64,000 nucleotides of DNA from Natronosalvus vescus (GTDB lineage Archaea > Halobacteriota > Halobacteria > Halobacteriales > Natrialbaceae). The stretch is from positions 434,001-498,000 of the forward strand of contig NZ_CP099546.1 of the NCBI RefSeq assembly GCF_023973145.1. Reading direction: 5' to 3'. Of the stretch, positions 1 to 15,529 are shown one piece after another. Below the pieces are notes generated by a model. That model was given only the letters and a program-made list of their open reading frames with translations, had not been told where the DNA came from and did not search any database. Made by a program: the position numbers and the translations under genes. Each line of letters starts with the position of its first letter. Within the stretch, counting starts at the first letter, position 1.

Positions 1-1414
1 TCTCGCCGTCCCTAGACTCGCTGTTCTGCCCCGACCTCTCGTGACCGACTGCGCGGTCGCGACCGGTATTCACTTCGGAAGCCCCGTGCTCGACGCTGTT
101 TCGAAAGACGTTCTCGAGCAACTGTCGAATTCGATCCGGATCGCCGATGATCGTTTGGTGTGTTTCGACGGAAAGGTCGGCGTTTGGGGTCCAGACGTGC
201 ATCCACGCCCGATTCGCCAGCTCCCCCAGATCGACCGGCGACTGGGCCTCGAGCTGTCGACCGGTGTGTGCGAGTTGCACCAGGTCGGTGACGAGTTCGT
301 CGATCCGGTTCGCCGCGCCCAGCACCTGGTCGACGTGCTCGATGTCGCCCGTGTTGATCGCCAGATCTGCGCTCCCTCGAATTTCCATCAGCGGCCCCTG
401 TAGATCGTGGGAGATCATCCCGGTGAAATCCTCGAGTTCCTGGAGCGTGATCAGCGTACTGCCCGACTCGGTGCCCACGCGGCTCGTTCGGATCTCGACG
501 TCGCGGTCGACCCCATCGATCGTGAACGTGTGCTCGGCGACTGTCGAACCGTCCGTGCTGGGGAGCACGTCGGGCGCTTGCTCGCCCAACAGCGCCACTG
601 GCTCCCGGCCGAGGATTCGTGCAGCCGATGGGTTGACGTCGACTACCCGGCCGTCCGCATCGACCACGACCATTCCGAGCTCCATCCGTTCGATGAGTTC
701 CTTCCGGCCGAGCTCGCGCGTCGCCGGGATCAGTCGAACGAAATCGTAGCGAACGATGATGCCGACGGCGATCGCACTCGTGAGCAGGATTCCGAGCGGT
801 GTGATCGCAAAGCCGTTTGGTGGGACTGGCAGGAAGAAGAGCACGTCGGCAACGATGCCGATCGAGATTGCCCCCGCGAGGGTGATTGCCTGCCACCGGT
901 AGACGTGGTCGGCGACCACCGCGTATCGGACGAACGCACCGACGGCGACCACTGAGAGGACGAACGCGTAGGCGATCCAGGGGACGGCGATGAGCCCGTA
1001 CTCGTATGCGACGTGCTGGGGCGTCGACGCTGCCGTCACGTTCGCATAGAAGCGTCCGTGGAGGTCGTCGGTCAGCGCCAACAGGAGTGCCCCGAGCGCC
1101 GGAAGGGAGATCAGGACGCGACGCCCTGGCGTCAGCCACTCGTCGTAGCCGGTGTACTCGAGCGCGAAAAACAGCAGTGCGACGGGGATGATCGTGATCC
1201 CGACGTACCGGATCTGGAGCAACGTCGCCGAGACGGTGAACGACGTCGTCGCGTAGTTGAGCCCTGCGGTGATCATCCAGACGACGTCGCCAACGAGAAC
1301 CACGACGAGCCAGATAATGCCGGGTTGCTCTCGACGACGATAGGCGAACACGGCGAGCCAGATGCCAATCGCCGCACCGAATAACTGGACGAGTGCCAAC
1401 AGCGTTAGCGTCAT
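1..1414 (-). CDS. Sensor histidine kinase with N-terminal 7TM region, C-terminus cut off by the window edge
   Basis: The frame opens at an ATG at 1414 and is still open at base 1. The first ~220 residues are a series of hydrophobic segments starting MTLTLLALVQLFGAAIGIWL, matching the 7TM sensor region of archaeal and bacterial histidine kinases. A PAS-like segment follows (ELGMVVVDADGRVVDVNPSA), then an H-box (FTGMISHDLQGPL; His is the expected phospho-acceptor) and an N-box (LLENVFRNSVEHG). The G-boxes of the ATPase domain lie beyond the edge. It is a membrane-bound two-component sensor; no response regulator is visible. The signal is unknown. A long competing frame on the same strand (12-1433) is Arg-rich and is a shadow. 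Confidence 0.85.
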   Translation of the reverse strand, partial: MTLTLLALVQLFGAAIGIWLAVFAYRRREQPGIIWLVVVLVGDVVWMITAGLNYATTSFTVSATLLQIRYVGITIIPVALLFFALEYTGYDEWLTPGRRVLISLPALGALLLALTDDLHGRFYANVTAASTPQHVAYEYGLIAVPWIAYAFVLSVVAVGAFVRYAVVADHVYRWQAITLAGAISIGIVADVLFFLPVPPNGFAITPLGILLTSAIAVGIIVRYDFVRLIPATRELGRKELIERMELGMVVVDADGRVVDVNPSAARILGREPVALLGEQAPDVLPSTDGSTVAEHTFTIDGVDRDVEIRTSRVGTESGSTLITLQELEDFTGMISHDLQGPLMEIRGSADLAINTGDIEHVDQVLGAANRIDELVTDLVQLAHTGRQLEAQSPVDLGELANRAWMHVWTPNADLSVETHQTIIGDPDRIRQLLENVFRNSVEHGASEVNTGRDRAVGHERSGQNSESRDGE

Positions 1415-1586
1415 TGTTCTGCCACCACCACACCGGTCGTGTGCCTCGAGTAACCGGAGTTATCGTCAGATTGGACTACAGCTAAATGTACGTTCTGCTC
1501 GAACGACTGACGCGTGGCTATCGCTCGGAGACTCAGGCGGACGATTCGGGCAGAAAATTGGTGGGTTGGGTGGGGCCGTTACGGCA

Positions 1587-1895
1587 TCATCGCGTCCGCT
1601 GTCGACTCCAGCCTCGCATCGACAACACGATCAACAGGAGAGCAAACACGGCGACGAGGAGCCACTGGCCGGTCCACGTCTGGGTGAACTCCGCGAACAT
1701 TCCGAGGAGATCCAGCCCAAACGCTTGCCCGAGGGCAAACAGCAGCAGGATGAACCCGACCAGTGCGAGCGCGATCCGGAGGAGACTCCGGGTGATCATT
1801 GTCGCCTCGGACTCGGGCGACTGTGACGCGTTACGCGTGTCTGACTCGGCCTGGTGTGTATCCTGGGCCATGTGCGACTGTTTACTGTCCCCCAT
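1587..1895 (-). CDS. Small haloarchaeal membrane protein, two TM segments
   Basis: This is a 102-residue protein with a polar ~32-residue N-terminus and two hydrophobic stretches, LLRIALALVGFILLLFALGQ and WLLVAVFALLLIVL, ending in a short basic tail. It has no recognisable catalytic motif. Alternative starts exist at 1871 (MAQDTHQ) and at the later Met just before the first TM segment (MITRSLL); the upstream ATG is chosen because it gives the longest frame. It is convergent with nothing obvious and stands alone downstream of the kinase promoter region. Small two-TM proteins of this kind are common and uncharacterised in haloarchaea, and I cannot assign a function. Confidence 0.65.
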   Translation of the reverse strand: MGDSKQSHMAQDTHQAESDTRNASQSPESEATMITRSLLRIALALVGFILLLFALGQAFGLDLLGMFAEFTQTWTGQWLLVAVFALLLIVLSMRGWSRQRTR

Positions 1896-1900
1896 TACTA

Positions 1901-2202
1901 TTATTGGCGCGCTAGCAACTGTTCGAATTCACAAAACAAACCGTGACCATCACGAAACCAGCCAATAACGTCGCTGAAGTGATCTACTCGTTCCGGCGAT
2001 TCTCCCTCGTCTGGGCGGACGTGCAGGATCTGCTCGCCGTCGGCTCTTCGGTCTGCGGTCGTTCGCTTCGCCTTCGGTCTGGATCTCGGAATAGACGCCT
2101 CTCGGGTTCGAACCGGCACAGCATCTCTTCAGAAGCCGTTTCAACTACTTTCTCTGGCACCCGCGGGCGGCCCGGCGGTAGTCCATACTGATCCAACTCC
2201 AA
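1901..2202 (-). pseudogene. Possible decayed gene with two frameshifts
   Basis: Three consecutive protein-like stretches occur on the minus strand, each in a different frame: MELDQYGLPPGRPRVPEK through CRFEPE (frame from 2202), then RGVYSEIQTEGEAND, then DGEQILHVRPDEGESPERVD to the C-terminal CEFEQLLARQ ending at 1901. Each has haloarchaeal composition, while the out-of-frame continuations become Arg/Ser-rich. Two successive +1 shifts would join them into a protein of about 100 residues. I do not recognise the family. This may be a real pseudogene, two sequencing indels, or chance composition. Confidence 0.35.
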
Positions 2203-2323
2203 CTCTGTCCAGCCTCACCGGTACATTCACGCCGTGTCGTGGTGCGGGCGGAACCCGAACCCAGTCACGCGGTGGCTTCCATTTATACCCAGTGGCGAAT
2301 TCAACGATGCCGTCGCCCAGGAA

Positions 2324-2986
2324 TCACTCGAGGTGCGGAAGGATCTCCTCGCGAAGATACTCCAGATACTGGGCCGAGTCGAACGACGATGGCTGATAGA
2401 GTTCCACGTAGCCGCTTCGAGTCGCGGTCATCTTCACATCGGCTCCATCGAATTCGTACGAGAGCCCGACCTGATTCAGTCTCGAGTCCGCCAGAATACT
2501 GTCCATACTGTCCCGGAGATCCTCACCGTGAAAGACGCCGTTCGTCCCGTTCTGTCCGGTTCCGAAGAAGCCCGCTTTCCACGGCGTCGCGTCCGCGTGG
2601 GCGGTGAAGAACGCGTCGACATCGAGCGAAACGCGCTCGATGTCCGTGCCGGTCTCTTTGCCGATCAACTCGAACGCGAAGGCACTATCGCCGCTGTTTA
2701 CGGCGACGAACTCGCCCGGAACGCCGACGAACTCGGCGTAGCGCGTGACGATCTCCTCCTGTTCGGCGACGTGGATGTCGCCGTTTTCGATGCTCGTGAC
2801 GGTTTCGTTCACGATCGCGTCGATAGCGGCCCGCCCCTCGAACGCCATGTCGCCGCCAGGGAGCGAGAACACGCGATCGATCGTGAGGCACTGCTCCAGT
2901 TCGTGGCCATCCTCCGAGATCGTCTCGGTGAACGAGTCGACGACCTTGAACGTCCCGTCGACCAGCCCGAGCACACCTGCTTTCAT
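2324..2986 (-). CDS. Conserved-looking haloarchaeal protein of unknown function
   Basis: The product is a 220-residue acidic soluble protein starting MKAGVLGLVDGTFKVVDSFT. It has no signal peptide, TM segment or recognisable nucleotide-binding or metal motif. Composition and codon use are typical of the window, so it is very probably translated. It begins at an ATG and is followed by an upstream AT-rich stretch (2990-3030) that may carry its promoter. It has no operon partner: its neighbours are a broken gene on one side and ~550 bp of non-coding DNA on the other. I do not recognise the family and assign no function. Confidence 0.75.
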   Translation of the reverse strand: MKAGVLGLVDGTFKVVDSFTETISEDGHELEQCLTIDRVFSLPGGDMAFEGRAAIDAIVNETVTSIENGDIHVAEQEEIVTRYAEFVGVPGEFVAVNSGDSAFAFELIGKETGTDIERVSLDVDAFFTAHADATPWKAGFFGTGQNGTNGVFHGEDLRDSMDSILADSRLNQVGLSYEFDGADVKMTATRSGYVELYQPSSFDSAQYLEYLREEILPHLE

Positions 2987-3534
2987 ACACAGGTATCAAT
3001 TTTCATTCCACTTTAATGATTGATATTCTGCCTTCCGAATCGGTGTCGTATCCGAAGGTGGCGCAGTGTATCGATTTCTGCTGTACACCTGCATCGGCGA
3101 CTCGAGTGTGACAGGGCCGTTACCCCGGAGGACTGATCCGATTGGATGATCCTGCTCGTTCGAACTGCTTCCTGTTTGAAGCTGCCTGATCTGGCTCCCG
3201 TGGATTGGAACCGTTTCGACGACTTACCGACCCTCCGTTGAACAGGTGTAGCGGATTCGAACTCCGAACGATTCACTGCCGTTCGTTTGTATTCTCATTC
3301 GCTTCGCTATCCTCGCACCGTTTCGGCGTGCTCCAGTTGGTCGCTCGGGCATTCCCTACACCTAGTATGAGCGTGGCGCATTCGAGACGTAATGATGGAG
3401 AATCAATCGTTCCAACACTGGTTCCGGGGCACGGACGGGAAGTCGACCGGCCACTCACGTCGTCGATGGTTCTGTCGCCCAAATTCGACTGCGTGATGGT
3501 GTAGGCGATAGCACAGCCGAGAACGATGATGGAC
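2987..3534. other. Intergenic stretch with no supported gene
   Basis: About 550 bases without a credible coding frame. Short frames on both strands are Ser/Arg-rich and carry no motif. The left part (2990-3030) is AT-rich and may hold the promoter of the minus-strand gene ending at 2324. I see no strong repeat or hairpin here. Confidence 0.6.
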
Positions 3535-4238
3535 TCATTCGGTGACGGTCACCGTTCCAATCGACTCTCTGTCACCGGCACTGAGCGACTCATCAACCTC
3601 TATTTGACCCGCCAGGTCGTACTCGCCGGGTTCGTCGAAAGCGCGGGTGAATTCGTACTCTGAACCGCTGAATCCGACGCAGTCCGCACCGCCGTCGATC
3701 GTTCCCTCGCGCGTATCGACCGCCTCACCGTCGACCAACAATCCGGCCGTAAACGCCGCTTCGCCGCCGAAGGTCGCCACCCCGAACGTCACCGACACTG
3801 ACTCGCCGACGGCCACGGTCTCGGGCTCGAGGCTAGCGTCCGCCACGTCGAGATCCGTGTTGTCCAGGTAGTGGTTCACCGAGAGGGATTTTCCGCATGA
3901 ACCTCGCCGTCCGGATCGCGCACTCTGACTGTTCCTTCCCTCACGCTGGAGGGTGCCCGCTCCGTGAGGTCGACGCTCCAGTGTCCGCGTTCGTCCGGCT
4001 CTGTAGGGATTTCCCTGACGACTTCTCCCCCATCGACTATCTCGAGCGTCAACGCTTCGTTGCATTCTTCGGCGCTTCCACTGACTGTGCCCTGACTGAC
4101 CTGGCCGCTGTCGCACCAGTACTCCACGCTCAACCGTGCGCTGGAAATGCTCGCGTCCGTACACGTCTGTTCGGACAGGCAACCGGCGGCAACGAGGAAT
4201 GGGGAACAGGCCAATCCGAGCAAATCACGTCGATTCAT
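3535..4238 (-). pseudogene. Tat lipoprotein gene interrupted by a frameshift (or two overlapping ORFs)
   Basis: The first frame (4238-3876, 120 residues) begins MNRRDLLGLACSPFLVAAGC, a twin-arginine-like signal with lipobox VAAGC, followed by a domain ending in VRDPDGEVHAENPSR. The stop at 3876-3878 overlaps a GTG at 3877-3879 in the -1 frame. From there a 114-residue frame to 3535 reads NHYLDNTDLDVADASLEPET and looks like a CARDB/Ig-like beta domain (VTFGVATFGGEAAFTAGLLV). The second part has no signal peptide of its own, so one ~235-residue secreted lipoprotein split by a single-base indel near 3880-3900 is the simplest reading. A GTGA-coupled gene pair is possible but would leave an unexported beta domain. 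Confidence 0.65.
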
Positions 4239-4426
4239 TTACCTGTCCAGGGTACCGGGGTCGATAATAAATACTTTCTGTCAGCTATTCCGTTCGGAGC
4301 CCGTGACAGTTGTTAAGGCGTGTAACCCAGGTAGGCCGCTTCGTCCGTATTCGTTATCGCTCGAAGGAAATCACTGCCTCCCGATCTGTGCCAGGAAGCG
4401 ACGTCCTCATCGCTCACTTGCGGGAA

Positions 4427-4773
4427 CGGGGACAGCTTGCTCTTCAGTCAAGTGCAGTCGCTTCTCGAGTGAGCATCGCGTAAAAGCCGGATGCCGCCTC
4501 CGTTTATGAACCACACCGAGACAGTCCGGGTGTATGGCTCGCTTCGCTCGCCATTCCGGGCTGTGACTCGTCTGGTTCAAATCCGATCGGATCGCACACT
4601 CACGGCTCGCGAGTTTGCTCGCCGTGAGAAGTCCGCCTCCCGGATTTGAACCACGCGAACACGGTCGCTCGCTCCGCTCGCGCTGCGTGTTCTCTACCTC
4701 AAATCCGATCGTTGGCAGATTTCTCCGCTCAGGGTTCGGTCGCGTCGCTCCCTCACAGGTTCGCGGAGAAATC
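4427..4773 (-). repeat. Chain of partial tRNA-Phe copies and hairpins on the 3' side of tRNA-Phe
   Basis: Positions 4633-4652 (ccgcctcccggatttgaacc) are identical to the tRNA-Phe 3' segment at 4777-4796. Inverted T-arm copies occur at 4573-4586 (tggttcaaatccga) and 4696-4707 (acctcaaatccg), and a decayed sense copy at 4492-4512. Between successive copies lie stem-loops: 4599-4606 with 4621-4628, 4657-4663 with 4686-4692, and a perfect 11-bp stem 4718-4728 with 4763-4773 that abuts the real tRNA. The far end, 4427-4455, matches the tRNA-Phe anticodon-arm region (4796-4824) at 26 of 29 positions. No gene is seen. Confidence 0.8.
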
Positions 4774-4774
4774 A

Positions 4775-4848
4775 TGCCGCCTCCCGGATTTGAACCGGGG
4801 ACAGCTCGATCTTCAGTCGAGTGCTCTCCCAGTCTGAGCTAAGGCGGC
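4775..4848 (-). tRNA. tRNA-Phe (GAA)
   Basis: The minus strand folds as a complete cloverleaf. The acceptor stem is GCCGCCT/AGGCGGC with discriminator A at 4775. The anticodon stem CTCGA/TCGAG encloses loop CTGAAGA, giving anticodon GAA. The T-arm is CCCGG TTCAAAT CCGGG. No intron and no encoded CCA are seen. It decodes UUU/UUC. A TATA-like element lies about 25 bases upstream. Its 3' side carries the repeat chain described at 4427-4773. Confidence 0.96.
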
Positions 4849-4867
4849 TCACCTCAACGTCCGTCGA

Positions 4868-4879
4868 TGATATAAAAAA
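4868..4879 (-). promoter_or_regulatory. TATA box of tRNA-Phe
   Basis: The run tgatataaaaaa on the plus strand reads TTTTTTATATCA towards the tRNA. It is the only strongly AT-rich block near the gene and is centred about 25 bases upstream of the tRNA 5' end at 4848, the usual spacing for an archaeal TATA box. Confidence 0.65.
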
Positions 4880-5066
4880 GGATTTCGAATGCCGTTTTTC
4901 CTCGCTACCATATCCCACTAACGGCTTCCATTACCATCGCCACAACCGTCATTGCTCGAGTCTCACTACACTCATCAGACCCGATAGTGGCTCGTTACGC
5001 CACTGTATGTTGGAATTTCGGATATTCAAGACACCCTTTTCTGGGCAGCACACGAACATACCGTTC

Positions 5067-5504
5067 ATGGAAGCGCTTCCCTCGAGCGAGGCAGACGAGC
5101 AGCTCACCGCTGACGTGATCCTCGAGCTGCTCGCCAACCGCCGTCGCCGATACCTCCTCTACGCGCTTCGTGGCCGAAACGAGCCGATCGAGCTATCGAA
5201 ATTGGCCGAACAGGTTGCCGGCTGGGAGCACGACGTACCGCCCGACGAGGTCGCGAAAAACGAATACAAGAGCGTGTACGTCTCGTCCGTCCAGTGTCAC
5301 GTCCCGAAGCTCGCCGATGCGGGCGTCGTCGACCACGACGCGGACAATCACACGGTCGTCCTCGCCGACCGGTTCGAGCAACTCGAGCCGTATCTGCGCG
5401 TGGTCGTCAAGGACGAACCCGAGAATTCACGCCTCTACGACGCACTCGAGGTCGAAGGTGGCGACGGCTTTTTCGGACAGCTTCGCCAGCGACTTAGCTC
5501 CTGA
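5067..5504 (+). CDS. Haloarchaeal winged-helix protein, DUF7344-like
   Basis: The product is 145 residues, starting MEALPSSEADEQLTADVILE. The pattern DVILELLANRRRRYLLYALR followed by a second helix, then KSVYVSSVQCHVPKLADAGVV and a beta-hairpin wing (DHDADNHTVVLADRF), is that of the small ArsR-like wHTH family common in haloarchaea. It probably acts as a DNA-binding transcription regulator, though targets cannot be read from the sequence. The ATG at 5067 is preferred because a longer frame would run into the tRNA-Phe gene. It stands alone between two tRNA loci. Confidence 0.8.
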   Translation: MEALPSSEADEQLTADVILELLANRRRRYLLYALRGRNEPIELSKLAEQVAGWEHDVPPDEVAKNEYKSVYVSSVQCHVPKLADAGVVDHDADNHTVVLADRFEQLEPYLRVVVKDEPENSRLYDALEVEGGDGFFGQLRQRLSS

Positions 5505-5833
5505 TTTGCGTCCGTTGGGTTGTCCTCGCCTTCGCCCTCCTCCGCTCCGACGTCGCTCTCGCACTCGAGCGCCAGCGTCGGTCGTCACGGACGCGACGTG
5601 ACCCACAATTCGCTGGGACAGGCAGGCGTCGTCGCTATCCCTCGTGGACGGCGCTCGGGCACGCAGACGCTGCCATTGATCCGTCTTCGGCCATGTGGGA
5701 TCATCGAACGTGCGTTTGGTGGCTCGAGCGGCCTGGACTCTCTTGCTACGCCCGGTAATGGTCACGTATCTCGCCCGTCGTCCCGTCGTTCACGGTTCTG
5801 GGTTTTCTTGGTTGTTAGTAACGGTCGTGCGTG
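5505..5833. other. Intergenic stretch, no gene seen
   Basis: GC-rich DNA between the wHTH gene and the tRNA-Val 3' repeat chain. All frames are Arg/Ser/Pro-rich and lack motifs. A weak, decayed copy of the tRNA-Val 3' sequence (ggtggctcgagcgg) may lie near 5718-5731. Nothing else is recognised. Confidence 0.5.
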
Positions 5834-6091
5834 TGGGCTCGAGCGGGTTCGAATCTCTCCCAAACGGTCGCTCTCGCCTTCGCTCAGGCTGCGTTTTGCA
5901 GGGTACGAACCGGCCCCACGTCACGGTACTATCGCTCACGGACGTGTTCGCGACGGCGACAGCGGGCTCGGGCGGGTTCGAACCTCGCCCAGACGGTCGG
6001 CCTCACTTCGTTCGGCCGCTGCGACTGGTCTGGTTCGAACTGCCCTCAAGACAGATTGCTGTCGCTCGCGGGTTGCTCGCGACAGCAATAG
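5834..6091 (-). repeat. Chain of partial tRNA-Val copies and hairpins on the 3' side of tRNA-Val
   Basis: Positions 5964-5984 (gggctcgggcgggttcgaac plus c) are identical to the tRNA-Val 3' segment at 6093-6113, and 5834-5852 is a close second sense copy. Inverted, decayed T-arm copies lie at 5901-5919 (gggtacgaaccggccccac) and 6032-6045 (ggttcgaactgccc). Between 6032-6045 and the real tRNA is a perfect 11-bp stem, attgctgtcgc (6055-6065) with gcgacagcaat (6079-6089). The alternation of sense copy, hairpin, inverted copy and hairpin is the same as at tRNA-Phe. Confidence 0.8.
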
Positions 6092-6165
6092 TGGGCTCGG
6101 GCGGGTTCGAACCACCGACCTCGGCCTTGTAAAGGCCGCGTCATAACCAGCTAGACCACGAGCCC
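6092..6165 (-). tRNA. tRNA-Val (UAC)
   Basis: The minus strand folds as a cloverleaf. The acceptor stem is GGGCTCG/CGAGCCC with discriminator A at 6092. The anticodon stem CGGCC/GGCCG has loop TTTACAA, giving anticodon UAC. The T-arm GCGGG is read with loop TTCGAAC. There is no intron and no encoded CCA. It is transcribed divergently from the DUF192 gene at 6230. Confidence 0.95.
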
Positions 6166-6190
6166 GTATCCGAGCAAAACCGCCCCGTTC

Positions 6191-6203
6191 GAATAACCTT
6201 TAC
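6191..6203. promoter_or_regulatory. Shared divergent promoter region of tRNA-Val and the DUF192 gene
   Basis: The block gaataaccttta lies 26-38 bases upstream of the tRNA 5' end on one strand and about 30 bases upstream of the ATG at 6230 on the other. It is the only AT-rich element in the 64-base gap, so both TATA-like signals must lie in or beside it. The exact elements are inferred. Confidence 0.4.
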
Positions 6204-6229
6204 TTTCTCGTGTCGGAGGTGTCCACGAG

Positions 6230-6736
6230 ATGGTGTCCCTCAGACGCGCTTGGTCGGCCCTCGTCGTTGGGTTCGTCCTCCTCGCCGTCGTCTACGGCCT
6301 GATCCAGCTCTCGATCCTTCCCGTCCCGTGGACGGACGACACCGCCGAAGTCACCGTCGTCGGCGACGACGGAACCACGAAACTCGTCGTCGAGGTCGAG
6401 GTCGCCGACACCTGGGAGGAACGCTACACTGGCCTCAGCGACCACGATTCCCTCGAGCCAGGCACCGGGATGCTGTTCGTCCATCGCAATGAGGACGAAC
6501 GAACGTACGTGATGCGAGACATGGACTTCGACATTGACATCATCTTCATCGGTGCCGACCGCGAAATCACGACGATACATCACGCGCGCGCACCAGAACC
6601 GGGGGAGGACGGCGAGGAACTCCGCTATTCGGGCGACGCACAGTGGGTGCTCGAGGTACCTAGTGGCACGGTCAACGACTCCTCGATCGAGGTCGGTGAT
6701 CGGGTCGAAATCGATGACCTCGACGCCGATGGGTAA
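6230..6736 (+). CDS. DUF192 family protein, membrane-anchored
   Basis: The product is 168 residues. An N-terminal hydrophobic segment (LVVGFVLLAVVYGLIQLSI) acts as a signal anchor and is followed by an extracytoplasmic DUF192 domain. Family hallmarks are EVADTWEERYTGLSDHDSLE, GMLFVHRNEDERTYVMRDM and a conserved core of IIFIGADREI. DUF192 proteins are small beta-barrel domains of unknown function, often exported. The start ATG is about 30 bases downstream of an AT-rich element, consistent with a leaderless transcript. It is followed, after a ~177-base gap, by an ABC exporter in the same direction. Confidence 0.88.
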   Translation: MVSLRRAWSALVVGFVLLAVVYGLIQLSILPVPWTDDTAEVTVVGDDGTTKLVVEVEVADTWEERYTGLSDHDSLEPGTGMLFVHRNEDERTYVMRDMDFDIDIIFIGADREITTIHHARAPEPGEDGEELRYSGDAQWVLEVPSGTVNDSSIEVGDRVEIDDLDADG

Positions 6737-6913
6737 CCGCGCGCCCGAGTAGTTGTGTGGTGTGGAAATTCGGTGTACAACCCAATCTGGTGTCGACGGT
6801 ATCGGTTCGCTAGCCCTGTTGCCGGCAAAGTAACCCGGGTTTACCCACCGACCGTCGTTCATATTTCGATTCGTAGGAAACGTTTATTGCTGACCAACCA
6901 TTCAGCCCGAGCA

Positions 6914-8878
6914 ATGAGTAGTGTCGACTGGGATAAAGATGATCCGTTCGAAGAGCAACGGGACAACATCGAGGATCCGATGCGTCGATTGCTTTTCGAG
7001 TACGGGCGTCCCTACTGGTTTTCGGTGACGGTCGGGATCTTCTCGAGCGTCTTTGCACGAGCGTTAGACCTCCTTCCCGCACTCTTGCTCGGTGTTGCGA
7101 TCGACTCCATTTTCGGCGACGCGGTGTTCGCCGAACAGATACCGCTGGTCGTCTTACCCGAGGCCTGGTTGCCGACGGGCCAGACAGAACAGTTCTGGTT
7201 CGTCGTCATCGCCATCGCGGGGTCGTTCGTCCTCGGGGCACTCTTCCACTGGCTGCGCAACTGGGGCTTCAACTCCTTCTCACAGGACATCCAGCACGAC
7301 GTCCGGACGGCTGCCTACGACAAGATGCAGCGGCTCGACATGGAGTTCTTCAGCAGCAAGCAGACCGGTGAGATGATGTCGGTGCTCTCGAACGACGTCA
7401 ACCAGCTTGAGCGCTTCCTGAACGACGGACTGAACTCGGCGTTCCGGCTGGTCGTGATGGTGCTCGGCATCGGCTTCCTGCTGTTCTGGCTCAATCCGCA
7501 ACTCGCGCTGATCTCGCTCGCACCAGTGCCGTTGATCGCCTTCTTCACGTACATTTTCGTCAAGAAGATCCAGCCGAAGTACGCCGCCGTGCGCTCGAGC
7601 GTCGGGAAGGTCAACTCGCGGCTCGAGAACAACCTCGGCGGTATTCAGGTGATCAAAGCCGACAACACCGAGGAGTACGAGTCAGGCCGGGTCGACGACG
7701 TCTCGCGCAACTACTTCAGTAAGAACTGGGAGGCGATCTGGATCCGGATCAAGTTCTTCCCCGGACTGCAGTTGATCTCGGGGATCGGATTCGTGCTCAC
7801 GTTCATCGTCGGTGGCTACTGGGTGTTCACGCAGACGGCTCCGGGGCCGTTCACCGGAACGCTCCAGACGGGGACGTTCGTCATCTTCATCCTCTACACC
7901 CAGCAGCTCGTCTGGCCGATGGCGCAGTTCGGCCAGATCATCAACATGTACCAGCGCGCGGAGGCGTCGAGCGAGCGCATCTTCGGACTGATGGACGAAG
8001 TGGGTCGGATCGACCGCGAGGAGGACGCCGATCCGATCGACGTTTCGGACGGTCACGTCGAGTACGATCACGTCTCGTTCAGCTACGCCGAAAGCGGTGA
8101 GTTCACCGAGGAGAACACCGAGAAAATCATCGACGACATCTCCTTCGAGGTCGGCGGCGGCGAGACCGTCGCGCTCGTCGGTCCAACTGGGGCTGGAAAG
8201 TCGACGGTCTTGAAACTGCTCTTGCGGCTGTACGACGTCAACGAAGGAGCGATTCGCGTCGACGACCAGGACATCCGTGACGTGTCGCTGGCGAGTCTCC
8301 GCCAGTCGATGGGCTACGTTGGCCAGGAATCGTACCTCTTCTACGGGACGGTCAAGGAGAACATCACCTACGGGACGTTCGAGGCCACCGACGAGGAGAT
8401 CGTCGAGGCCGCCAAAGCTGCCGAGGCACACGACTTCATCCAGAACCTGCCCGAGGGCTACGACACCATGGTCGGCGAACGCGGCGTGAAGCTCTCTGGC
8501 GGTCAGCGCCAGCGGCTGTGTATCGCCCGGGCAATCCTCAAGGATCCCGACATCCTCATCCTCGATGAGGCGACGAGCGACGTCGACACCGAGACCGAGA
8601 TGCTGATCCAGCGGTCGATCGACAAACTCACCGAGGATCGGACGACGTTCGCCATCGCTCACCGCCTCTCGACGATCAAGGACGCCGACCAGATCGTCGT
8701 CCTCGAGGGCGGAGCGATCGTCGAACGCGGCAGTCACGACGACCTGCTGCAAAACGACGGTCTTTACGCACACCTCTGGGGCGTTCAGGCCGGCGAAATC
8801 GACGAACTGCCGGAGGAGTTCATCAAGCGTGCCCAGCAGCGGACGGCACGCACGCAGGCTCGACGCGGGGACGACTGA
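6914..8878 (+). CDS. ABC transporter, fused permease and ATPase (ABCB/exporter type)
   Basis: The product is 654 residues from the ATG at 6914 (MSSVDWDKDDPFEEQRDN). Residues ~25-350 form a six-helix ABC transmembrane domain with the family motif LDMEFFSSKQTGEMMSVLSN. Residues ~380-620 form the ATPase: Walker A GPTGAGKST, Q-loop GYVGQESYLF, signature LSGGQRQRL, Walker B ILILDEATSDVD and H-loop AHRLST. One chain carries one TMD and one NBD, so it should work as a homodimer that exports lipids, peptides or drugs; the substrate is unknown. The frame extends 53 codons upstream, but that extension is Arg/Cys-rich and starts inside intergenic DNA. Confidence 0.93.
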   Translation: MSSVDWDKDDPFEEQRDNIEDPMRRLLFEYGRPYWFSVTVGIFSSVFARALDLLPALLLGVAIDSIFGDAVFAEQIPLVVLPEAWLPTGQTEQFWFVVIAIAGSFVLGALFHWLRNWGFNSFSQDIQHDVRTAAYDKMQRLDMEFFSSKQTGEMMSVLSNDVNQLERFLNDGLNSAFRLVVMVLGIGFLLFWLNPQLALISLAPVPLIAFFTYIFVKKIQPKYAAVRSSVGKVNSRLENNLGGIQVIKADNTEEYESGRVDDVSRNYFSKNWEAIWIRIKFFPGLQLISGIGFVLTFIVGGYWVFTQTAPGPFTGTLQTGTFVIFILYTQQLVWPMAQFGQIINMYQRAEASSERIFGLMDEVGRIDREEDADPIDVSDGHVEYDHVSFSYAESGEFTEENTEKIIDDISFEVGGGETVALVGPTGAGKSTVLKLLLRLYDVNEGAIRVDDQDIRDVSLASLRQSMGYVGQESYLFYGTVKENITYGTFEATDEEIVEAAKAAEAHDFIQNLPEGYDTMVGERGVKLSGGQRQRLCIARAILKDPDILILDEATSDVDTETEMLIQRSIDKLTEDRTTFAIAHRLSTIKDADQIVVLEGGAIVERGSHDDLLQNDGLYAHLWGVQAGEIDELPEEFIKRAQQRTARTQARRGDD

Positions 8879-8889
8879 GCGCTGAGCGG

Positions 8890-9234
8890 TCAGAACGACT
8901 CCTGTTTCCCCTCGAGATCCTCGCCCGATGGACTCTCTTCTTCGCGCTCCTCGCCGGGAGCGGGCGGCGTCCGATCGCTGTAGTGTTTTCGTCCAATCGC
9001 TTCGTCACTGACCATGTTCATCACGGCCTGTTCGATCTCGTCGTAGGAGGCGTACTCGTCCTCGTTGAGCGGGCCGATGAGTTCCTCGAGGGTGGCCGTC
9101 TCCTCGCCCATTTCGAGTTCGACGTCGCCGTGGTTCTCGAGCAGCGTGTCGTGTTCGATCGGGTAGTCGTGATCCTCGAGCGCCGCCTGCAGGTCGCCGA
9201 GTTCGATGCCGAGTTCGCGGCTGTCTTCGCTCAT
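8890..9234 (-). CDS. DUF5789 family protein
   Basis: The product is 114 residues, starting MSEDSRELGIELGDLQAALE. The conserved core is a short acidic alpha-helical domain (EEHDTLLENHGDVELEMGEE-like order, then TLEELIGPLNEDEYASYDEI and VMNMVSDEAIGRKHYSDR). It ends in a disordered, Glu-rich tail. The family is restricted to haloarchaea and has no known function. The ATG at 9234 is chosen over a 60-codon upstream extension that is Gly/Pro-rich and overlaps the promoter of the divergent gene at 9423. It converges with the ABC transporter, whose stop is 12 bases away. Confidence 0.85.
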   Translation of the reverse strand: MSEDSRELGIELGDLQAALEDHDYPIEHDTLLENHGDVELEMGEETATLEELIGPLNEDEYASYDEIEQAVMNMVSDEAIGRKHYSDRTPPAPGEEREEESPSGEDLEGKQESF

Positions 9235-9422
9235 GGGGGCGGATTGAACGACCATCGAGTTACGGTTTGAGCCTGCGTTCGCGTGCCCGGCGTTCATACC
9301 GTCGGGTTCGGCTGCCGGAAACGTTGTTCCCGGTGGGATCGTCTGGTTCCGGCCGCTCGCGATGGGATCACCTGCGTCGTCACGGGCACAGGTACAAGAG
9401 GGGAGACCACTCACGAACCGGT

Positions 9423-10160
9423 ATGGATCTCACTGAGGCCACTTGGGCCGAGGTCGCCGACTGTGACACCGACCTCGCCGTGGTTCCGGTCGGCAGCACC
9501 GAACAGCACGGCCCGCACGCGCCGCTCGGAACGGACGTGCTCGCCGCCGAAGCGGTCGCCGACGCCGCCCTCGAGCGGTTCGAGCGGGAGGTCGTCCGTG
9601 CGCCGGCGATTCCGGTCGGCATCGCCGAGGAACACCGACACTTTCCGGGGACGATGTGGGTCTCGCCGGACACCTTCCGGGCGTATATTAGGGACGTCGT
9701 CGACAGCCTCGCCCACCACGGCTTCGACCGCGTCGTTCTCGTGAACGGCCACGGCGGGAACGTCGATGCCCTCCGGGAGGTGACGGCCACCATCACCCGG
9801 CACGACGACGCCTACGCCGTCCCGTTCACTTGGTTCGAGGCCGTCGGCGAGCACGCGAGCGAGATGGGACACGGCGGGCCGCTCGAGACGGCCCTGCTTC
9901 GCCACTGTTATCCCGACCTGATTCGCGAAGACCGACTCGAGGAGGCACGGGACGGCGGCGCGGAACGCTGGGGCGAGTGGGTAAGTCACGCCAACCTGGC
10001 GGTCGACTCGGTGGAATTTACGGAAAATGGCGTCGTCGGCGACCCGACGGCTGGAGACGCCGATCGCGGGGCGGAGCTGCTCGAGCTGGCGGCGTCCTCA
10101 CTGGAGCGATTGCTCGAGGCGGTGGCGACGCGAGACGTTTCGCGGCCGGAGAGGCGATAG
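9423..10160 (+). CDS. Creatininase family hydrolase, ArfB-like
   Basis: The product is 245 residues. Family metal-binding and active-site signatures are present: VPVGSTEQHGPHAPLGTD (Glu/His ligands), IPVGIAEEHRHFPGTMWVSP, VLVNGHGGNVDAL and MGHGGPLETALLRH. Archaeal creatininase homologues include ArfB, the Fe/Zn-dependent deformylase acting on the formylamino pyrimidine made by GTP cyclohydrolase III in riboflavin and F420 synthesis; that role is inferred from the family and from haloarchaeal need. True creatinine amidohydrolase activity is less likely. The start at 9423 fits the MDLTEATWAEV pattern. Its product could feed the F420 pathway represented here by cofE. Confidence 0.85.
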   Translation: MDLTEATWAEVADCDTDLAVVPVGSTEQHGPHAPLGTDVLAAEAVADAALERFEREVVRAPAIPVGIAEEHRHFPGTMWVSPDTFRAYIRDVVDSLAHHGFDRVVLVNGHGGNVDALREVTATITRHDDAYAVPFTWFEAVGEHASEMGHGGPLETALLRHCYPDLIREDRLEEARDGGAERWGEWVSHANLAVDSVEFTENGVVGDPTAGDADRGAELLELAASSLERLLEAVATRDVSRPERR

Positions 10161-10180
10161 CGAGGAGCTGGTGTGGGGCG

Positions 10181-10597
10181 TTACTCGTCGTCTTCGTCTT
10201 CGTCGTCTCCATCGGCTTCCGCGAGCGTCCCGCGAAGGGCCGGAATCGTCGCCGTGAGGTCGCCGACCTGTTCGCCAGCGCTGGTGATGTCCTCGAGGGC
10301 GGTTTCGATCGCTTCGATCTCTTCCTCGAGGTCGTCGGCGTCGTCGAACGCGTCGGCGCGTTCGCCCATCGTGTACCACTTCTTGGCGTCTCGCAGGTGA
10401 TCCTCGGCGTCACCGACGTCGAGCGCGGATTTGAGCCCGTTGAGGACGCCCAGCACGTTCTCGGCGTCGGTTTCCCAGATGTCGTCGGCCGCCGGGAGCG
10501 CCTCCCAGGCGGCCGCCAGCGAGGCCTCGACGTCCGAGCGCATCTCGCTGGCCGCTTCCCCGAACAGTTCGTCGTCATCCAGTGAGGCTTGACTCAT
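10181..10597 (-). CDS. DUF5790 family protein
   Basis: The product is 138 residues, starting MSQASLDDDELFGEAASEMR. It is entirely helical and very acidic, with an internal conserved stretch LRDAKKWYTMGERADAFDDA and a C-terminal run of Asp/Glu (DGDDEDEDDE). This matches the haloarchaeal DUF5790 family, function unknown. The Met at 10597 is used; a 24-codon upstream extension lies in promoter DNA. It converges with the creatininase-like gene across a 20-base gap. Confidence 0.85.
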   Translation of the reverse strand: MSQASLDDDELFGEAASEMRSDVEASLAAAWEALPAADDIWETDAENVLGVLNGLKSALDVGDAEDHLRDAKKWYTMGERADAFDDADDLEEEIEAIETALEDITSAGEQVGDLTATIPALRGTLAEADGDDEDEDDE

Positions 10598-10825
10598 GTC
10601 ACCACGTTCACTGCCACTCGGGTTAAAAGGTTGCCCGAAAGTGAAAGTGAAAACGCGGTGAATGGCCACTCTCCGTGGGGATCAGCGGCTGTAATTCGAA
10701 ACTGTCTATATCTCTCATAGGGGTCGCTGTAGTTACGTACCGCCGATCGCCCGCCAGAGGGTCGGCGGCGGGCGGTACATTGGTACACCATTCCCTATCA
10801 ATCGCCGGACGACCGGCGACGGCGA

Positions 10826-11446
10826 TCACGTCGCCATCGTTTCGTTGTCTTCGTTCGAGTGCTCACTCCCCTCGCTCGAGCGCTCACCGCCTTCGTTCGA
10901 GGATTCGATGGTGACGTCCGTATCCTCGACCTGATCTGTCTGTCCCGTTCCGAGGAGCTTCGACGTACAGGCCTCTGCCGTCGGCTCGAGGGACGTATAG
11001 AGGACGACAGCGAGGGCGACGAGCAGGGGGAGCGACAGGATGAGGAACACGATGTCGTACGCCCAGGAGACGCTTCCGAGCAAGGGTTGCACCGCGTCGG
11101 CGAGTCCCCGGTGGGCGATCAACACCGCGACGAGCACCGTCGTAATGCGGACGGTTGTTCCGGCCTTTCTGGTGAGACCGGAGGGTTCTCTCAGACTCGA
11201 CCGGACGAGTCGCTCGAGCGCCGGAGCGAGGATCACGAGGAGCGCGACGACGGCGATCGTGGCGACGGCGGTGAGCGCTGCGCCGATGGTCACCGGCGTG
11301 CCGGGGACGAGCCAGTTCGCCCCCGGCAACAGCGAGGCGAAGCTGACGAGCACGATCACGGCCGCCGCTGCGAGCGTCACCGTCGTTATCTGACGGACGG
11401 TGTCCGGTTCGATTGCGGTTGGGGTTGATGCGCCTTCGGTCTGCAT
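10826..11446 (-). CDS. Haloarchaeal integral membrane protein, four TM segments
   Basis: The product is 206 residues. After a polar N-terminus come four hydrophobic segments (ITTVTLAAAAVIVLVSFASL, LTAVATIAVVALLVIL, VRITTVLVAVLIAHRGL, IVFLILSLPLLVALAVVLYT) and a ~55-residue acidic Ser/Glu-rich cytoplasmic tail. No transporter or enzyme signature is visible and I do not recognise the family. It is monocistronic, starting from an ATG at 11446 with ~290 bases of non-coding DNA upstream. Confidence 0.75.
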   Translation of the reverse strand: MQTEGASTPTAIEPDTVRQITTVTLAAAAVIVLVSFASLLPGANWLVPGTPVTIGAALTAVATIAVVALLVILAPALERLVRSSLREPSGLTRKAGTTVRITTVLVAVLIAHRGLADAVQPLLGSVSWAYDIVFLILSLPLLVALAVVLYTSLEPTAEACTSKLLGTGQTDQVEDTDVTIESSNEGGERSSEGSEHSNEDNETMAT

Positions 11447-11741
11447 GGTTAGCAGTGTCGACCAGCAATCGACCCAAAAAAGCGCAGTATCGTTCTTCAG
11501 GTTCGATCCGTTTCCGCTTCGTTCACGACCGTTTCCGTTTTACAACCGTGTCAGTGGATCATAGTGACCGCGAATCTTCTCGTTATCGGCTGATACACCC
11601 TTCAGAGCACCGGATGTCGTCGTTTTCTGCTTGCTCGAGTGGTATCGTCACCCGCGTGTGCCGGCGTTATCGTCCGTATAACCGTCGTGAACGTCGGTAG
11701 CGGGCGTGTGGCTGCCCAGATGGCCCACGTCCGCTACTCGA

Positions 11742-12116
11742 TTAGCGCTGCCGGACGGACTCGAGGCGCATCAACGGGTAGCCGTCGTCCATCGCCATGC
11801 GCGTCACGACTTCGACGTCGTCGTAGTCGACGACGATCTCGACCTCGATGAACCGCCCGGTGAGTTCGGTGTAGTCGGCCGACGACGCCTCGAGCGCTTC
11901 GGTGAGTGCGTCAGTGCGAACGTCGACGGTCACGCTGGCGCAGTGGGGCTGGTTCTCGATGGCTGACTCCATCGCTCGAGCGAGGCTGTCGACGCTTTCG
12001 AGGCTGATGGGGGTGCCCGCAAACTGGTGGTAGAGGGAGCCGAACTTGATGCCTGCCTCGAAACAGGCCTGTTCGGCGGCCCTCGGGCCCTCCTCACCGT
12101 TGTGATCGCTGGTCAT
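11742..12116 (-). CDS. mptD: Dihydroneopterin aldolase, archaeal MptD type
   Basis: The product is 124 residues with the archaeal DHNA signature AEQACFEAGIKFGSLYHQFAGTP and a later VTVDVRTDALTEALEASSADYTEL region. MptD cleaves 7,8-dihydroneopterin to 6-hydroxymethyl-7,8-dihydropterin and glycolaldehyde in the archaeal folate/methanopterin pathway. Its length matches the family (about 120 residues). The protein is soluble and cytosolic. It lies 78 bases upstream of a small zinc-finger gene on the same strand and may be co-transcribed with it. The family assignment comes from sequence resemblance only. Confidence 0.82.
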   Translation of the reverse strand: MTSDHNGEEGPRAAEQACFEAGIKFGSLYHQFAGTPISLESVDSLARAMESAIENQPHCASVTVDVRTDALTEALEASSADYTELTGRFIEVEIVVDYDDVEVVTRMAMDDGYPLMRLESVRQR

Positions 12117-12194
12117 ACGCGTCGTTCGTCCGGCAGCGCCGTGATCGTTGTGATCTCGTCCGGTGATCTCGAGGGTTCGTCACCCGAACTCGCG

Positions 12195-12434
12195 TCACTC
12201 GACCCAGGCTTCGAGACAGTCGTCGGTACAGAAATGATCGTAGGTGGTCTGGCCGTCCTCGACGGCCGTCACGACCCGATGAGTGTGTTTCTTGGTGATC
12301 GCGTCGCCACAGACGCGACAGGTCGTGTCGGTTTCTCCACCATCGGTGTGTAACTCGGCCATGTGTTCCAGCACCTGCTGCAAGTTGAAGGGTGTGACAC
12401 ACTTGAACACGCCTGTTGCGGCGGTATCCGCCAC
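12195..12434 (-). CDS. Small zinc-finger protein, DUF7576-like
   Basis: The product is 79 residues. It contains CRVCGDAITKKHTHRVVTAV and YDHFCTDDCLEAW, giving a CxxC...CxxxC zinc site with interspersed His residues, as in the haloarchaeal DUF7576-type knuckles. Such proteins are thought to mediate protein or nucleic-acid contacts; no function is established. The N-terminal ~30 residues lack a motif. It is downstream of mptD on the same strand. Confidence 0.75.
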   Translation of the reverse strand: MADTAATGVFKCVTPFNLQQVLEHMAELHTDGGETDTTCRVCGDAITKKHTHRVVTAVEDGQTTYDHFCTDDCLEAWVE

Positions 12435-12542
12435 GGCCGGAATTTCAGTGACCAGTTGCTCAGTTCCGAGGCGTCAATCGCCGGACGGCGGGTTCGAAGG
12501 CGGATCGTGGCCACTGATCGTAGCCGCTGTCCTCGAGCGGTC

Positions 12543-13649
12543 TCAACTCCCCCGTGGCGTCCGTGCCAACGCCACCAGCAAGGCCGCGAGGGCGGTGAGA
12601 GCCACCAGCGAGCCAAAGCCGGATAACCCATCCGCGTCAGCGTCGTCGGTCGAGTCGTCCGTGCCGTTCGAGTCGCCCTGACCCGACTCCGTGTCGCTCG
12701 ATCCGTCAGTAGCACTGTCATTCGCATCGTCATCGTCGCCAGTGTTCTCGTTACCGGTTGCATCGTCGTCACCTTCACCGGGCACACCGGAGGTATCGTC
12801 GTCTTCGCCGTCGTCGCTGGAGCTGTCGTCGTCGTTCGTTTCGTCGTCACTGTCAGCGTTAGACCCGGAATCGTCGGCACCGTCGTCAACGGGAGCGTCC
12901 CCGGTCAGTTGTAACACGACGACCACCTGTCCGTGTGAGAGCGGTTCCTGATAGACCCACCCGCCGTCAGCGTCCTCGTAGGGGACGGCCGCCTCGAGCG
13001 GATCGAGGTCGGTGTCCCAGGCCTGGTCGTCCTGCTGGATGTAGCCGATGACCTCGATGTGGTCGGCGTGTGCCCCATCGATGACGGCCTCTCCGTAGGT
13101 GACCTCGTCGCCGTCGTCGTCGAAGCCGTGGAACTCGATGCAGTGACTGTCGAGGTAGCCGTCGCCCTGGGGGACGTGATCTGCGGTGCCGAACTGATCG
13201 GAATCGAGCGGCCGGTCGTAGTGGTCGGTCAGGGGGTACTGCACCGTCATCGGATCGGCACCGGAGTGCCAGTCGAGCGAATCGCCGGTCGGGACGGTGA
13301 CGGTCGTTCCCGGCACCGACTCGCCGACGATCGGATCGCCGGCCTCGTTCAGCAGGGTAACACAGATCTTGCCGGAGCCGTCGCCGAGATACGGGCTTCG
13401 GTACTCATCGCGCGGGTTGATGTAGCTGATCCAGCTGCCGTCGGCGGCCTGGGCTTCGAACCACTCATCCCCGGGTTCGGGTACCTCGAGTTCGGCCGCT
13501 TCCTCCGAGACGGTATCGTTCCCGGGATCGCTGGCAACGGGCGCGAGCGAGCCACTCGAGACGAGGAGTCCGGTTGCGATGGCGGCGATCACGAGGGATG
13601 CGCCGACGGCGAGCAGTACGGTACGCCAGGATCTGGATGGGGTGTCCAT
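12543..13649 (-). CDS. Secreted surface protein with PGF-CTERM-like anchor
   Basis: The product is 368 residues from MDTPSRSWRTVLLAVGASLV. An N-terminal signal/TM segment is followed by an extracellular beta-rich domain (residues ~40-240). Next is a long Asp/Ser/Gly-rich low-complexity stalk (~90 residues), then GLSGFGSLVALTALAALLVA and a short Arg tail (ARTPRGS). This last element matches the PGF-CTERM signal processed by archaeosortase A, which attaches proteins to the membrane lipid. The extracellular domain is not recognised; it carries CVTLLNEAGDPIVGESVPGT and two Cys. A GTG or ATG six codons upstream is an alternative start. Confidence 0.82.
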   Translation of the reverse strand: MDTPSRSWRTVLLAVGASLVIAAIATGLLVSSGSLAPVASDPGNDTVSEEAAELEVPEPGDEWFEAQAADGSWISYINPRDEYRSPYLGDGSGKICVTLLNEAGDPIVGESVPGTTVTVPTGDSLDWHSGADPMTVQYPLTDHYDRPLDSDQFGTADHVPQGDGYLDSHCIEFHGFDDDGDEVTYGEAVIDGAHADHIEVIGYIQQDDQAWDTDLDPLEAAVPYEDADGGWVYQEPLSHGQVVVVLQLTGDAPVDDGADDSGSNADSDDETNDDDSSSDDGEDDDTSGVPGEGDDDATGNENTGDDDDANDSATDGSSDTESGQGDSNGTDDSTDDADADGLSGFGSLVALTALAALLVALARTPRGS

Positions 13650-13841
13650 AGCGATGATCTGCCCCACCCAATGACAATCACGGATTTTGGTATGTCACGA
13701 GTACTACACCGTACGGCCTTCGTACCAGACGGTACGGGGTGCCTTCTCGGCACCGTCGCCGACGACCGTACTGGGTAGCGTGATCGCTCGAGGGGGATGG
13801 GTTACAACAGTGGACTGGTCGCAGTCACGACTCGGTGGGAT

Positions 13842-13923
13842 GTAGTAGCCACTGAAACGATTCACACAGCGATCGCAGATGCGTCTTGCGATCGTGTGTG
13901 CAGTGACTTTCAGTGGCTACTAT
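13842..13923. repeat. MITE-like palindromic element, copy 1
   Basis: An ~82-bp element with perfect 15-bp terminal inverted repeats, tagtagccactgaaa (13843-13857) and tttcagtggctacta (13908-13922). An inner palindrome gcgatcgca/tgcgatcgt lets the whole element fold into one long hairpin. A decayed second copy lies at 62996-63079 in the opposite orientation. It has no coding capacity. It sits in the ~360-base gap between the PGF-CTERM gene and a cold-shock gene; I see nothing else there. Confidence 0.78.
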
Positions 13924-14006
13924 AGCAACCAGCAGTAACGCGAGCTATCGCTCTCGGTCGAGTTGAATAGTAGAATGTGAAACCGAGCTATTGAACGGGT
14001 GCCGTA

Positions 14007-14201
14007 TTACAGGCGGGTGACGTTCGTCGCGCGGGGGCCTTTGGGGGCCTGTTCGATGTCGAATTCAATATCAGTGCCTTCTTCGAGGTCCGGACCGCCG
14101 ACGTCTTCCATGTGGAAGAATACGTCATCGTCCGCGTCGTCCGTCGAAATGAAACCGTAGCCGCCTGTGTCGTTGAAGAAATCAACGTTGCCTTTCGCCA
14201 T
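14007..14201 (-). CDS. Cold-shock domain protein (CspA family), copy 1
   Basis: The product is 64 residues, MAKGNVDFFNDTGGYGFIST, with the CSD RNA-binding motifs KGNVDFFNDTGGYGFI (RNP1-like) and DVFFHMEDV (RNP2-like). It is a single-domain OB-fold protein that binds single-stranded RNA/DNA. A second, almost identical protein is encoded at 34100-34294. A TATA-like cttatc lies 25-30 bases upstream of the ATG, suggesting a leaderless message. The frame upstream of this Met is open but not coding-like. Confidence 0.95.
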   Translation of the reverse strand: MAKGNVDFFNDTGGYGFISTDDADDDVFFHMEDVGGPDLEEGTDIEFDIEQAPKGPRATNVTRL

Positions 14202-14599
14202 TGCGACTAAACACAACGCCGATACGGGGATAAGGCTTGCGTGGGTGGTGTTCACGCGACCACTGCTTACGAATATTCGAATCGGCGCTTTCCGAGAGTC
14301 GTTCCGCTGTATCCCCCATTGTGATCGGAATCGTCCGGTAATACATCCATTCTCGATATGAGGGGCGGAACAATATTTTGAGCTCGATCGCTCGAGGGTC
14401 GAGGCACTGTTGCCCGCGATGCTCGTGATACCGTTCCCCACGGCACGAGTAACGATGGTCGATTACGCAACGACGACCGGCTACGTAGCGTCGACCGACT
14501 CGGCCGGCGAGACGCCATTTTCGACCCGAAACGACCCGACGACACGAACCACCGCCGAATCACTACAGTTTAGCCCCTTCGCTCGAGAATACCCGGATA
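14202..14599. other. Intergenic region between divergent genes
   Basis: About 400 bases between the divergent cold-shock and VUT-transporter genes. It holds the cold-shock promoter at the left (around 14226) and probably that of the transporter at the right. No coding frame, repeat or RNA gene is recognised. Confidence 0.5.
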
Positions 14600-15310: not shown

Positions 15311-15529
15311 GGTCTGGGGTGACCGAGTAGTCACCCTGACAGAAACACTATAAAAATAATAGTATATAATTACACCTTCTATATTTTTGGCTCGGCACCT
15401 GACATGGTTACAATGTGATCGTGTACGCCGTTTTGCCGCGACACGGCCAGTGGCTGGGGATCTGGTGTCCGTACTGACATCTCGAGTCAAAACGGGGAGA
15501 TTTAGTGGCTCCCTCGAGACGAGTTAGGT

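Follow-up and report, generated by a model that had tools for sequence, protein, structure and literature searches.

Roughly half of the sampled haloarchaeal tRNA genes are followed at their 3' ends by ordered, gene-free hairpin units bounded by copies of the tRNA's own 3' half, and whole units have been gained or lost within a genus. These structures look like miniature insertion arrays, linked to tRNA genes, of a type not reported before. A literature search, within whose reach few subscription papers lay, found no description of them. All three tRNA genes (Phe, Val, and Pro) of the window, the 64,000-nucleotide stretch of the Natronosalvus vescus genome analyzed here (NZ_CP099546.1, positions 434,001 to 498,000), carry such an array (Table 1). 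Mobile elements classically land at tRNA 3' ends, and the arrays copy the landing site itself. We give about an even chance to the reading that hairpin cassettes pile up at tRNA attachment sites via site-specific recombination at a 22-nt core. Recombination of the units as folded single strands would amount to an integron-like process at tRNA genes, whereas their transcription would make them a large class of unannotated tRNA trailers. On either reading, the arrays matter for the annotation of tRNA flanks and integration sites.

Arrays in the window

A first-pass annotation, made from the letters of the window, had described direct and inverted copies of the tRNA-Phe 3' half downstream of the gene, and most of its components were recovered. 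The 20-base 3' segment it placed at 4633-4652 is identical to 4777-4796 (20/20), its inverted copy at 4573-4586 contains a perfect 12-nt inverse (4574-4585) of 4785-4796, and its decayed sense copy at 4492-4512 corresponds to a repeat of 4774-4784 at 4491-4501. The copy of the anticodon arm (4427-4455 versus 4796-4824) agrees at 26 of 29 positions, and the innermost stem (4718-4728 with 4763-4773) is indeed a perfect one of 11 bp. The second inverted copy, at 4696-4707, is present but weaker than described, with about 9 clean bases, and the array, although its parts between 4427 and 4773 stand, goes on past 4427 to a decayed copy at 4374-4392. The tRNA 3' end had been taken as the last unit of the array; it is instead the young end, the proximal copies being more intact. 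The anticodon-arm copy may be an old element end inside the tRNA-Phe array, a reading drawn from its likeness to the longer copies made by integrative elements and from the tRNA-Phe arrangement in G002 and at two further relatives' loci (L085 and L090). An Rfam search of the window returned matches only to tRNAs, and the array matched no structured RNA family.

Table 1 Features of the tRNA-Phe, tRNA-Val, and tRNA-Pro arrays, in positions of the window
Feature	Position	Strand	Remarks
tRNA-Phe(GAA), parent gene	4775-4848	minus	ARAGORN and Rfam agree
Repeated core, last 22 nt of tRNA-Phe	within 4775-4848	minus	GGTTCAAATCCGGGAGGCGGCA
tRNA-Phe unit 1, hairpin 1	4718-4773	minus	perfect 11-bp stem, arms 4718-4728 and 4763-4773
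tRNA-Phe unit 1, antisense T-arm	4696-4707	minus	partly decayed
tRNA-Phe unit 1, hairpin 2, family E/D-like	4653-4695	minus	GAACACGC...GAGCGGAGCGAGC...GTGTTC
tRNA-Phe unit 1, sense copy of 3' half	4633-4652	minus	20/20
tRNA-Phe unit 2, hairpin 1	4587-4632	minus	CTTCTCACGGCGAGCAAACTCGCGAGCCGTGAG
tRNA-Phe unit 2, antisense T-arm	4573-4586	minus	12/12
tRNA-Phe unit 2, hairpin 2, family C	4513-4572	minus	CCAGACGAG...GTCTCGG
tRNA-Phe unit 2, sense copy of 3' half	4492-4512	minus	decayed
Copy of anticodon arm to 5' side of T-stem	4427-4455	minus	26/29; then a hairpin, as in relatives L085, L090, and G002
Third 3'-half copy, outer end of array	4374-4392	minus	strongly decayed; GGCACAGATCGGGAGGCAG, by eye
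tRNA-Val(TAC), parent of second array	6092-6165	minus	ARAGORN and Rfam
tRNA-Val unit 1, hairpin 1	6055-6089	minus	11-bp stem
tRNA-Val unit 1, antisense T-arm	6027-6040	minus	
tRNA-Val unit 1, hairpin 2, family C	5985-6026	minus	CCAGACCAGTCGC...GTCTGGGCGAGG
tRNA-Val unit 1, sense copy	5964-5984	minus	21/22
tRNA-Val unit 2, sense copy	5834-5853	minus	20/22; antisense T-arm of unit 2 at 5902-5916
tRNA-Pro(CGG), parent of third array	40774-40846	plus	ARAGORN only; below Rfam tRNA cut-off
tRNA-Pro unit, antisense T-arm	40916-40925	plus	
tRNA-Pro unit, sense copy of 3' half	40976-40996	plus	

Unit anatomy and hairpin families

Read outward from the tRNA, a unit comprises the discriminator base, hairpin 1, an antisense T-arm, hairpin 2, and a sense copy. 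Units are approximately 80-160 nt long, consist of hairpins only, and encode no protein. Hairpin 1 often starts with CTTTT; GGGATTTGAA exemplifies the antisense T-arm; and the sense copy consists of GGTTCRAATCCC and the acceptor strand, ending at the discriminator. The bounding copies are, in the best cases, exact direct repeats of the tRNA 3' end (up to 22/22), and the core GTTCRAAY comes from the tRNA sequence. Hairpin 2 falls into several families with fixed basal motifs, namely family A (AGACCGAGGTTCTGC-loop-GCAGGTTCTCGGGCGTNG), family B (CAGGGAG-stem-CGACCGTGG), and families C, D, and E, named by eye, at tRNA-Phe, -Val, and -Met. Together, the antisense T-arm, hairpin 2, and the sense copy form an attC-like imperfect palindrome adjoining each core.

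Pairing within these structures covaries. The apical stem of the family-B hairpin 2 shows 23 double-changed cells versus 7.8 in shuffles, and the antisense and sense T-arms show 35 across tRNAs versus 14.2 (none of 500 shuffles as high in either case), with shuffle controls that leave shared ancestry in. The invariant flanks of the family-B alignment are a product of the search pattern and have no evidential value. Excess folding stability relative to dinucleotide shuffles, which the first-pass annotation had expected of 4427-4848, was confirmed (z -4.74); the array alone gives -4.47, its opposite strand -3.31, and folding as DNA -3.11. In the arms, G-U outnumbers A-C by 27:10, an asymmetry that leans toward folding of the sense strand but carries little weight, as GC-biased substitution could give the same.

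These properties bear on the alternative that the array is a structured 3' trailer, cotranscribed with the tRNA, whose hairpins and antisense or decoy T-arms act in processing, or mimic or sequester a processing enzyme, with selection keeping the pairing. The constant position of the arrays downstream of the tRNA and in sense, the strong covariation of hairpin-2 stem and T-arms, the better folding of the sense strand, and, subject to the same substitution bias, the excess of G-U all agree with such a role. It is harder to reconcile with the presence of arrays at only about half of tRNAs, their differing occupancy at orthologous tRNAs within a genus (8/27), the decay of distal copies, the T-run that directly follows many tRNA genes, and the lack of a match to any Rfam family, and we consider it unlikely.

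Family-B hairpin 2 at all loci has recurrent tandem G-A/A-G mismatches (5'-GGGAG...CGACC-3') and GNA triloops (GCGNAGC), both of which are very stable in DNA and RNA alike. The tandem G-A pairs (AGGGAG...CGACC) brought K-turn or box C/D RNA into consideration, but no Rfam model matched. A primer-binding site of a retroelement was rejected since the antisense copy spans the T-arm, not the acceptor end. The idea that the shared core GAGCGNAGCGAGC recurs throughout the genome was rejected too, with 17 matches versus 27 for a backwards control.

Distribution of the arrays

Similar arrays had been anticipated at other tRNA genes, and they occur not only at tRNA-Val and tRNA-Pro of the window but at many further tRNAs. 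Within the 800-nt flanks of 44 tRNA genes of this genome (43 Rfam matches and tRNA-Pro), matches to the tRNA's own 3' half numbered 29 sense and 22 antisense downstream, compared with 4 and 4 upstream. A wider count covered 140 loci, comprising the tRNAs of four genomes of one genus and tRNA-Phe of 27 other relatives, before short and duplicate loci were removed. Copies matching at least 16 of the 22 positions were present within 700 nt downstream at 73 of these loci (91 copies) and upstream at none. The own tRNA was the best fit for all 16 copies tested against every other tRNA of the genome. Copies decay with distance from the gene: in 11 arrays the first is better preserved than the second, in none is it worse, and 5 are ties (p=0.001).

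The hairpin families are likewise restricted to tRNA 3' ends, 62 of the 66 family-A and family-B loci lying downstream of a same-strand tRNA. Of the 61 genomes of the order searched with a pattern, 42 contained family B (backwards control, 0), and 33 of the 36 loci read follow a same-strand tRNA at a distance of 50-400 nt. The remaining three are L059, L056, which is the end of an 18.2-kb element integrated at tRNA-Arg, and L072, which carries tRNA-Pro 3'-end sequence. Family A lies at most 400 nt downstream of a tRNA at 29 of 30 loci, again with a backwards-pattern control of 0. A stricter family-B pattern matched 26 of 53 Halobacteriales genomes versus 0 of 242 other genomes of the phylum, and in a loose family-B scan of this genome, the real stem-loops, with stems judged by eye, were all at tRNA loci. 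Unit-bearing viruses were considered and rejected, the 15 pattern matches in viral contigs being chance matches that have no T-arms; blastn of a unit against phages and plasmids gave no match.

Gain, loss, and exchange of units

Four genomes of one genus (G000, G002, G006, and G007) were compared at their orthologous tRNAs, with the G000 tRNA-Met entry left out of the occupancy table owing to mismatching of two tRNA-Met genes. Between G002 and G007, occupancy differs at 8 of 27 tRNAs and is common at 8. Differences of unit size were found at tRNA-Ser(GGA) (162 nt, present in G006 and absent from G002; flank identity 0.89), tRNA-Ile (139 nt, G007 versus G002; 0.86), and tRNA-Met (120 nt, G006 versus G002; 0.76), the 99.9% point of unrelated flanks being 0.69. 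Relatives have empty sites at these three tRNAs, and the preserved flank resumes exactly after the copy. The G006 tRNA-Ser(GGA) unit ends in a 22/22 copy, whereupon the sequence rejoins that immediately downstream of the tRNA in G002.

Parts of units change as well. Hairpins 1 and 2 have been swapped independently, with their neighbors conserved, at tRNA-Met, -Lys, and -Gly(TCC); for instance, G000 and G006 have hairpin 1 of tRNA-Met in common and differ in hairpin 2, and G002 and G007 have hairpin 2 of tRNA-Gly(TCC) in common and differ in hairpin 1. Identical units recur in tandem, approximately 100-130 nt apart, in G008, G011, and G023. At tRNA-Arg(CCT), G006 (L159) and G007 (L114) have opposite orientations of the hairpin-1 loop that follows the first copy (TCAACGGCCTCGCGTCGCTCGGCACGTTGA versus TCAACCTGCCGAGTGACGCGAGGCCGTTGA).

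An explanation that dispenses with dedicated mobility would attribute the arrays to template switching, unequal recombination, or gene conversion at the palindromic T-arm, the hairpins spreading by ordinary homologous recombination. The identical tandem units, the independent exchange of the two hairpins, the inverted loop, and the antisense T-arm that always fits its own tRNA are in line with it. Conserved basal motifs, however, recur at unrelated tRNAs over many genera and nowhere else in the genome, so that some spread specific to tRNA 3' ends is needed; the arrays are also confined to haloarchaea, although palindromic T-arms occur in every genome. We regard this explanation as rather unlikely.

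Relation to integrative elements

A Haloquadratum prophage at tRNA-Ala is delimited at its end by a duplicated tRNA stretch of 22 nt (PMC3119063), equal in length to the array core. Three elements of the relatives have array-like hairpins at their distal copies. The G031 element (18.2 kb; L185, G031:C12:206700-226600, 572-18880) encodes a PF00589 tyrosine integrase and lies between an intact tRNA-Arg(TCT) and a 22/22 copy, with a family-A-like hairpin just before the distal 22-nt copy. The two G002 elements are located at tRNA-Phe and tRNA-Val(CAC) and measure about 5.6 kb and about 1.9 kb, respectively; each has a PF00589 match, either internal or close to the distal end, and the GAGCGCAGCGAGC hairpin beside the distal copy. 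In the elements at tRNA-Thr (30.5 kb, G007) and tRNA-Glu (39.3 kb, G002), the duplicated stretch exceeds 40 nt and takes in the anticodon arm, and no such hairpin adjoins the copy; the hairpin is therefore not a general feature of integrases. With three elements having the hairpin and two lacking it, hairpins accompany some, not all, tRNA-integrated elements. For one array within an integrase element, capture of host sequence may be the origin.

Serial integration at the tRNA 3' end, suggested by the first-pass annotation, fared unevenly. The unit-sized presence and absence between relatives, the younger proximal copies, and the 22-nt copy length speak for it, but the arrays are not ordinary large-element scars, since their spacers are conserved, covarying hairpin families shared across tRNAs and genera. 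This disfavors a reading as attR scars left by large elements that integrated serially and then lost their bodies by deletion. The anticodon-arm copy at the far end (4427-4455) does resemble the longer attR copies of real elements; the spacers, however, are short, regular, hairpin-forming, homologous across tRNAs and genera, and free of remnant genes, which makes the scar reading highly improbable. As for attL/attR-type structure, the direct repeat and empty sites are present, and integrase or other genes are absent from the units.

Comparison with known systems

Integron cassette arrays, with attI and attC sites and the IntI tyrosine recombinase, are a close formal parallel to the proposed recombination at the core. 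Both are anchored at one fixed site, have a direct core repeat at each boundary and an imperfect palindrome beside each core, and apparently have their younger units at the anchored end. Unlike integron cassettes, array units lack genes and are anchored at many different tRNA genes, the core is the tRNA sequence GTTCRAAY rather than GTTRRRY, and the antisense arm matches each tRNA. The integrase search used PF00589 in general, in which IntI is not singled out.

The tyrT repeats of E. coli, 178-bp units with the last 19 bp of tRNA-Tyr, resemble the arrays in repeating the 3' end of the tRNA in tandem behind the gene, but they occupy one tRNA locus and lack antisense copies and hairpin families shared across tRNAs. 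REP/BIME sequences, associated with RAYT (Y1) transposases, are short extragenic hairpins dispersed over the genome. Their alternating orientation and extragenic location are common to the arrays, whose units are instead located at tRNA loci and bounded by tRNA 3'-end copies.

The SMR, PATE, and MITE repeats of Haloquadratum (PMC3119063) are likewise short (about 110 bp), palindromic, gene-free, and tied to a particular target; SMRs and PATEs target IS605 palindromes without target duplication (PMC3119063), whereas array units are placed at the 3' ends of tRNAs and have a copy of 22 nt. Movement of the hairpins by a Y1 (IS200/IS605-type) transposase, as for REP/BIME or PATE/SMR, would fit the BIME-like alternation of hairpins, the five Y1_Tnp matches in this genome, and the insertion of the approximately 110-bp SMR-A repeats in palindromes (PMC3119063). 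We consider it improbable: the units end in a 22-nt direct repeat, which PATEs and SMR-As lack, REP-type repeats are dispersed rather than placed at tRNAs, and the transposases present in the genome showed no link to the arrays.

The attR copies of haloarchaeal proviruses and plasmids (PMC3119063) are also partial copies of the tRNA 3' end lying downstream, 22 nt in length; array spacers differ in being 80-160-nt hairpins that are gene-free, repeated, alternating in orientation, and present at about half of tRNA genes. We group the arrays with short palindromic repeats at mobile-element attachment sites, a known kind, since a mechanism that would set them apart is not proven.

Proposed mechanism

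Under the preferred reading, an array would be a stack of miniature DNA cassettes of approximately 80-160 nt at the 3' end of a tRNA gene, each bounded by a 22-nt direct repeat comprising the T-arm and the acceptor 3' strand up to the discriminator base. In favor of this reading are the uniform anatomy at many tRNAs, the placement at tRNA 3' ends, the fit of copies to their own tRNA, the covariation, the unit-sized differences between relatives, the decay with distance, the core length shared with the prophage duplication, and the hairpins of the three integrase-bearing elements; the lack of matches in viruses, phages, and plasmids, the two elements that have no hairpin, and the possible host origin of one array count against it. 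The antisense T-arm, hairpin 2, and sense copy are predicted to fold as one long imperfect hairpin, which may act as the partner in recombination, in formal analogy to the attC site of integrons. Site-specific recombination at the 22-nt core, which serves tRNA-targeting integrative elements for attachment as well, would bring each new unit in beside the tRNA, through a putative tyrosine integrase probably acting in trans. Units would be lost by recombination between direct repeats; as such loss leaves the same empty sites as insertion, the direction of change is not proven. The fit of the antisense T-arm to each tRNA argues against a cassette moving between tRNAs, unless it is converted afterwards, and the independent exchange of hairpins 1 and 2 makes simple insertion of whole cassettes insufficient. 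A fuller version, possible yet doubtful, is an integron-like haloarchaeal system in which folded single-stranded hairpins, each bearing a copy of the 3' half of a tRNA, would recombine into the attachment site of that tRNA. Hairpins 1 and 2 would then be modules open to exchange, and the outcome would be gene-free cassette arrays at half of all tRNA genes.

Further observations

In six tRNA-Phe arrays (L081, L084, L089, L096, L097, and L106), the distal copy has one extra T-loop base, reading GTTCACAATCC or GTTCATAATCC. These copies span several genera and adjoin a nearly identical family-A hairpin, reflecting either strong constraint or transfer between genera.

At tRNA-Pro(GGG) (G000:C1:3450341-3450510; L041), the second unit repeats GCGGTTCCATTTTCAC and has an antisense copy of it. 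Since this junction merely resembles a T-arm (GGTTCCA), the process seems to act on GGTTCNA-like DNA, true T-arms not being required.
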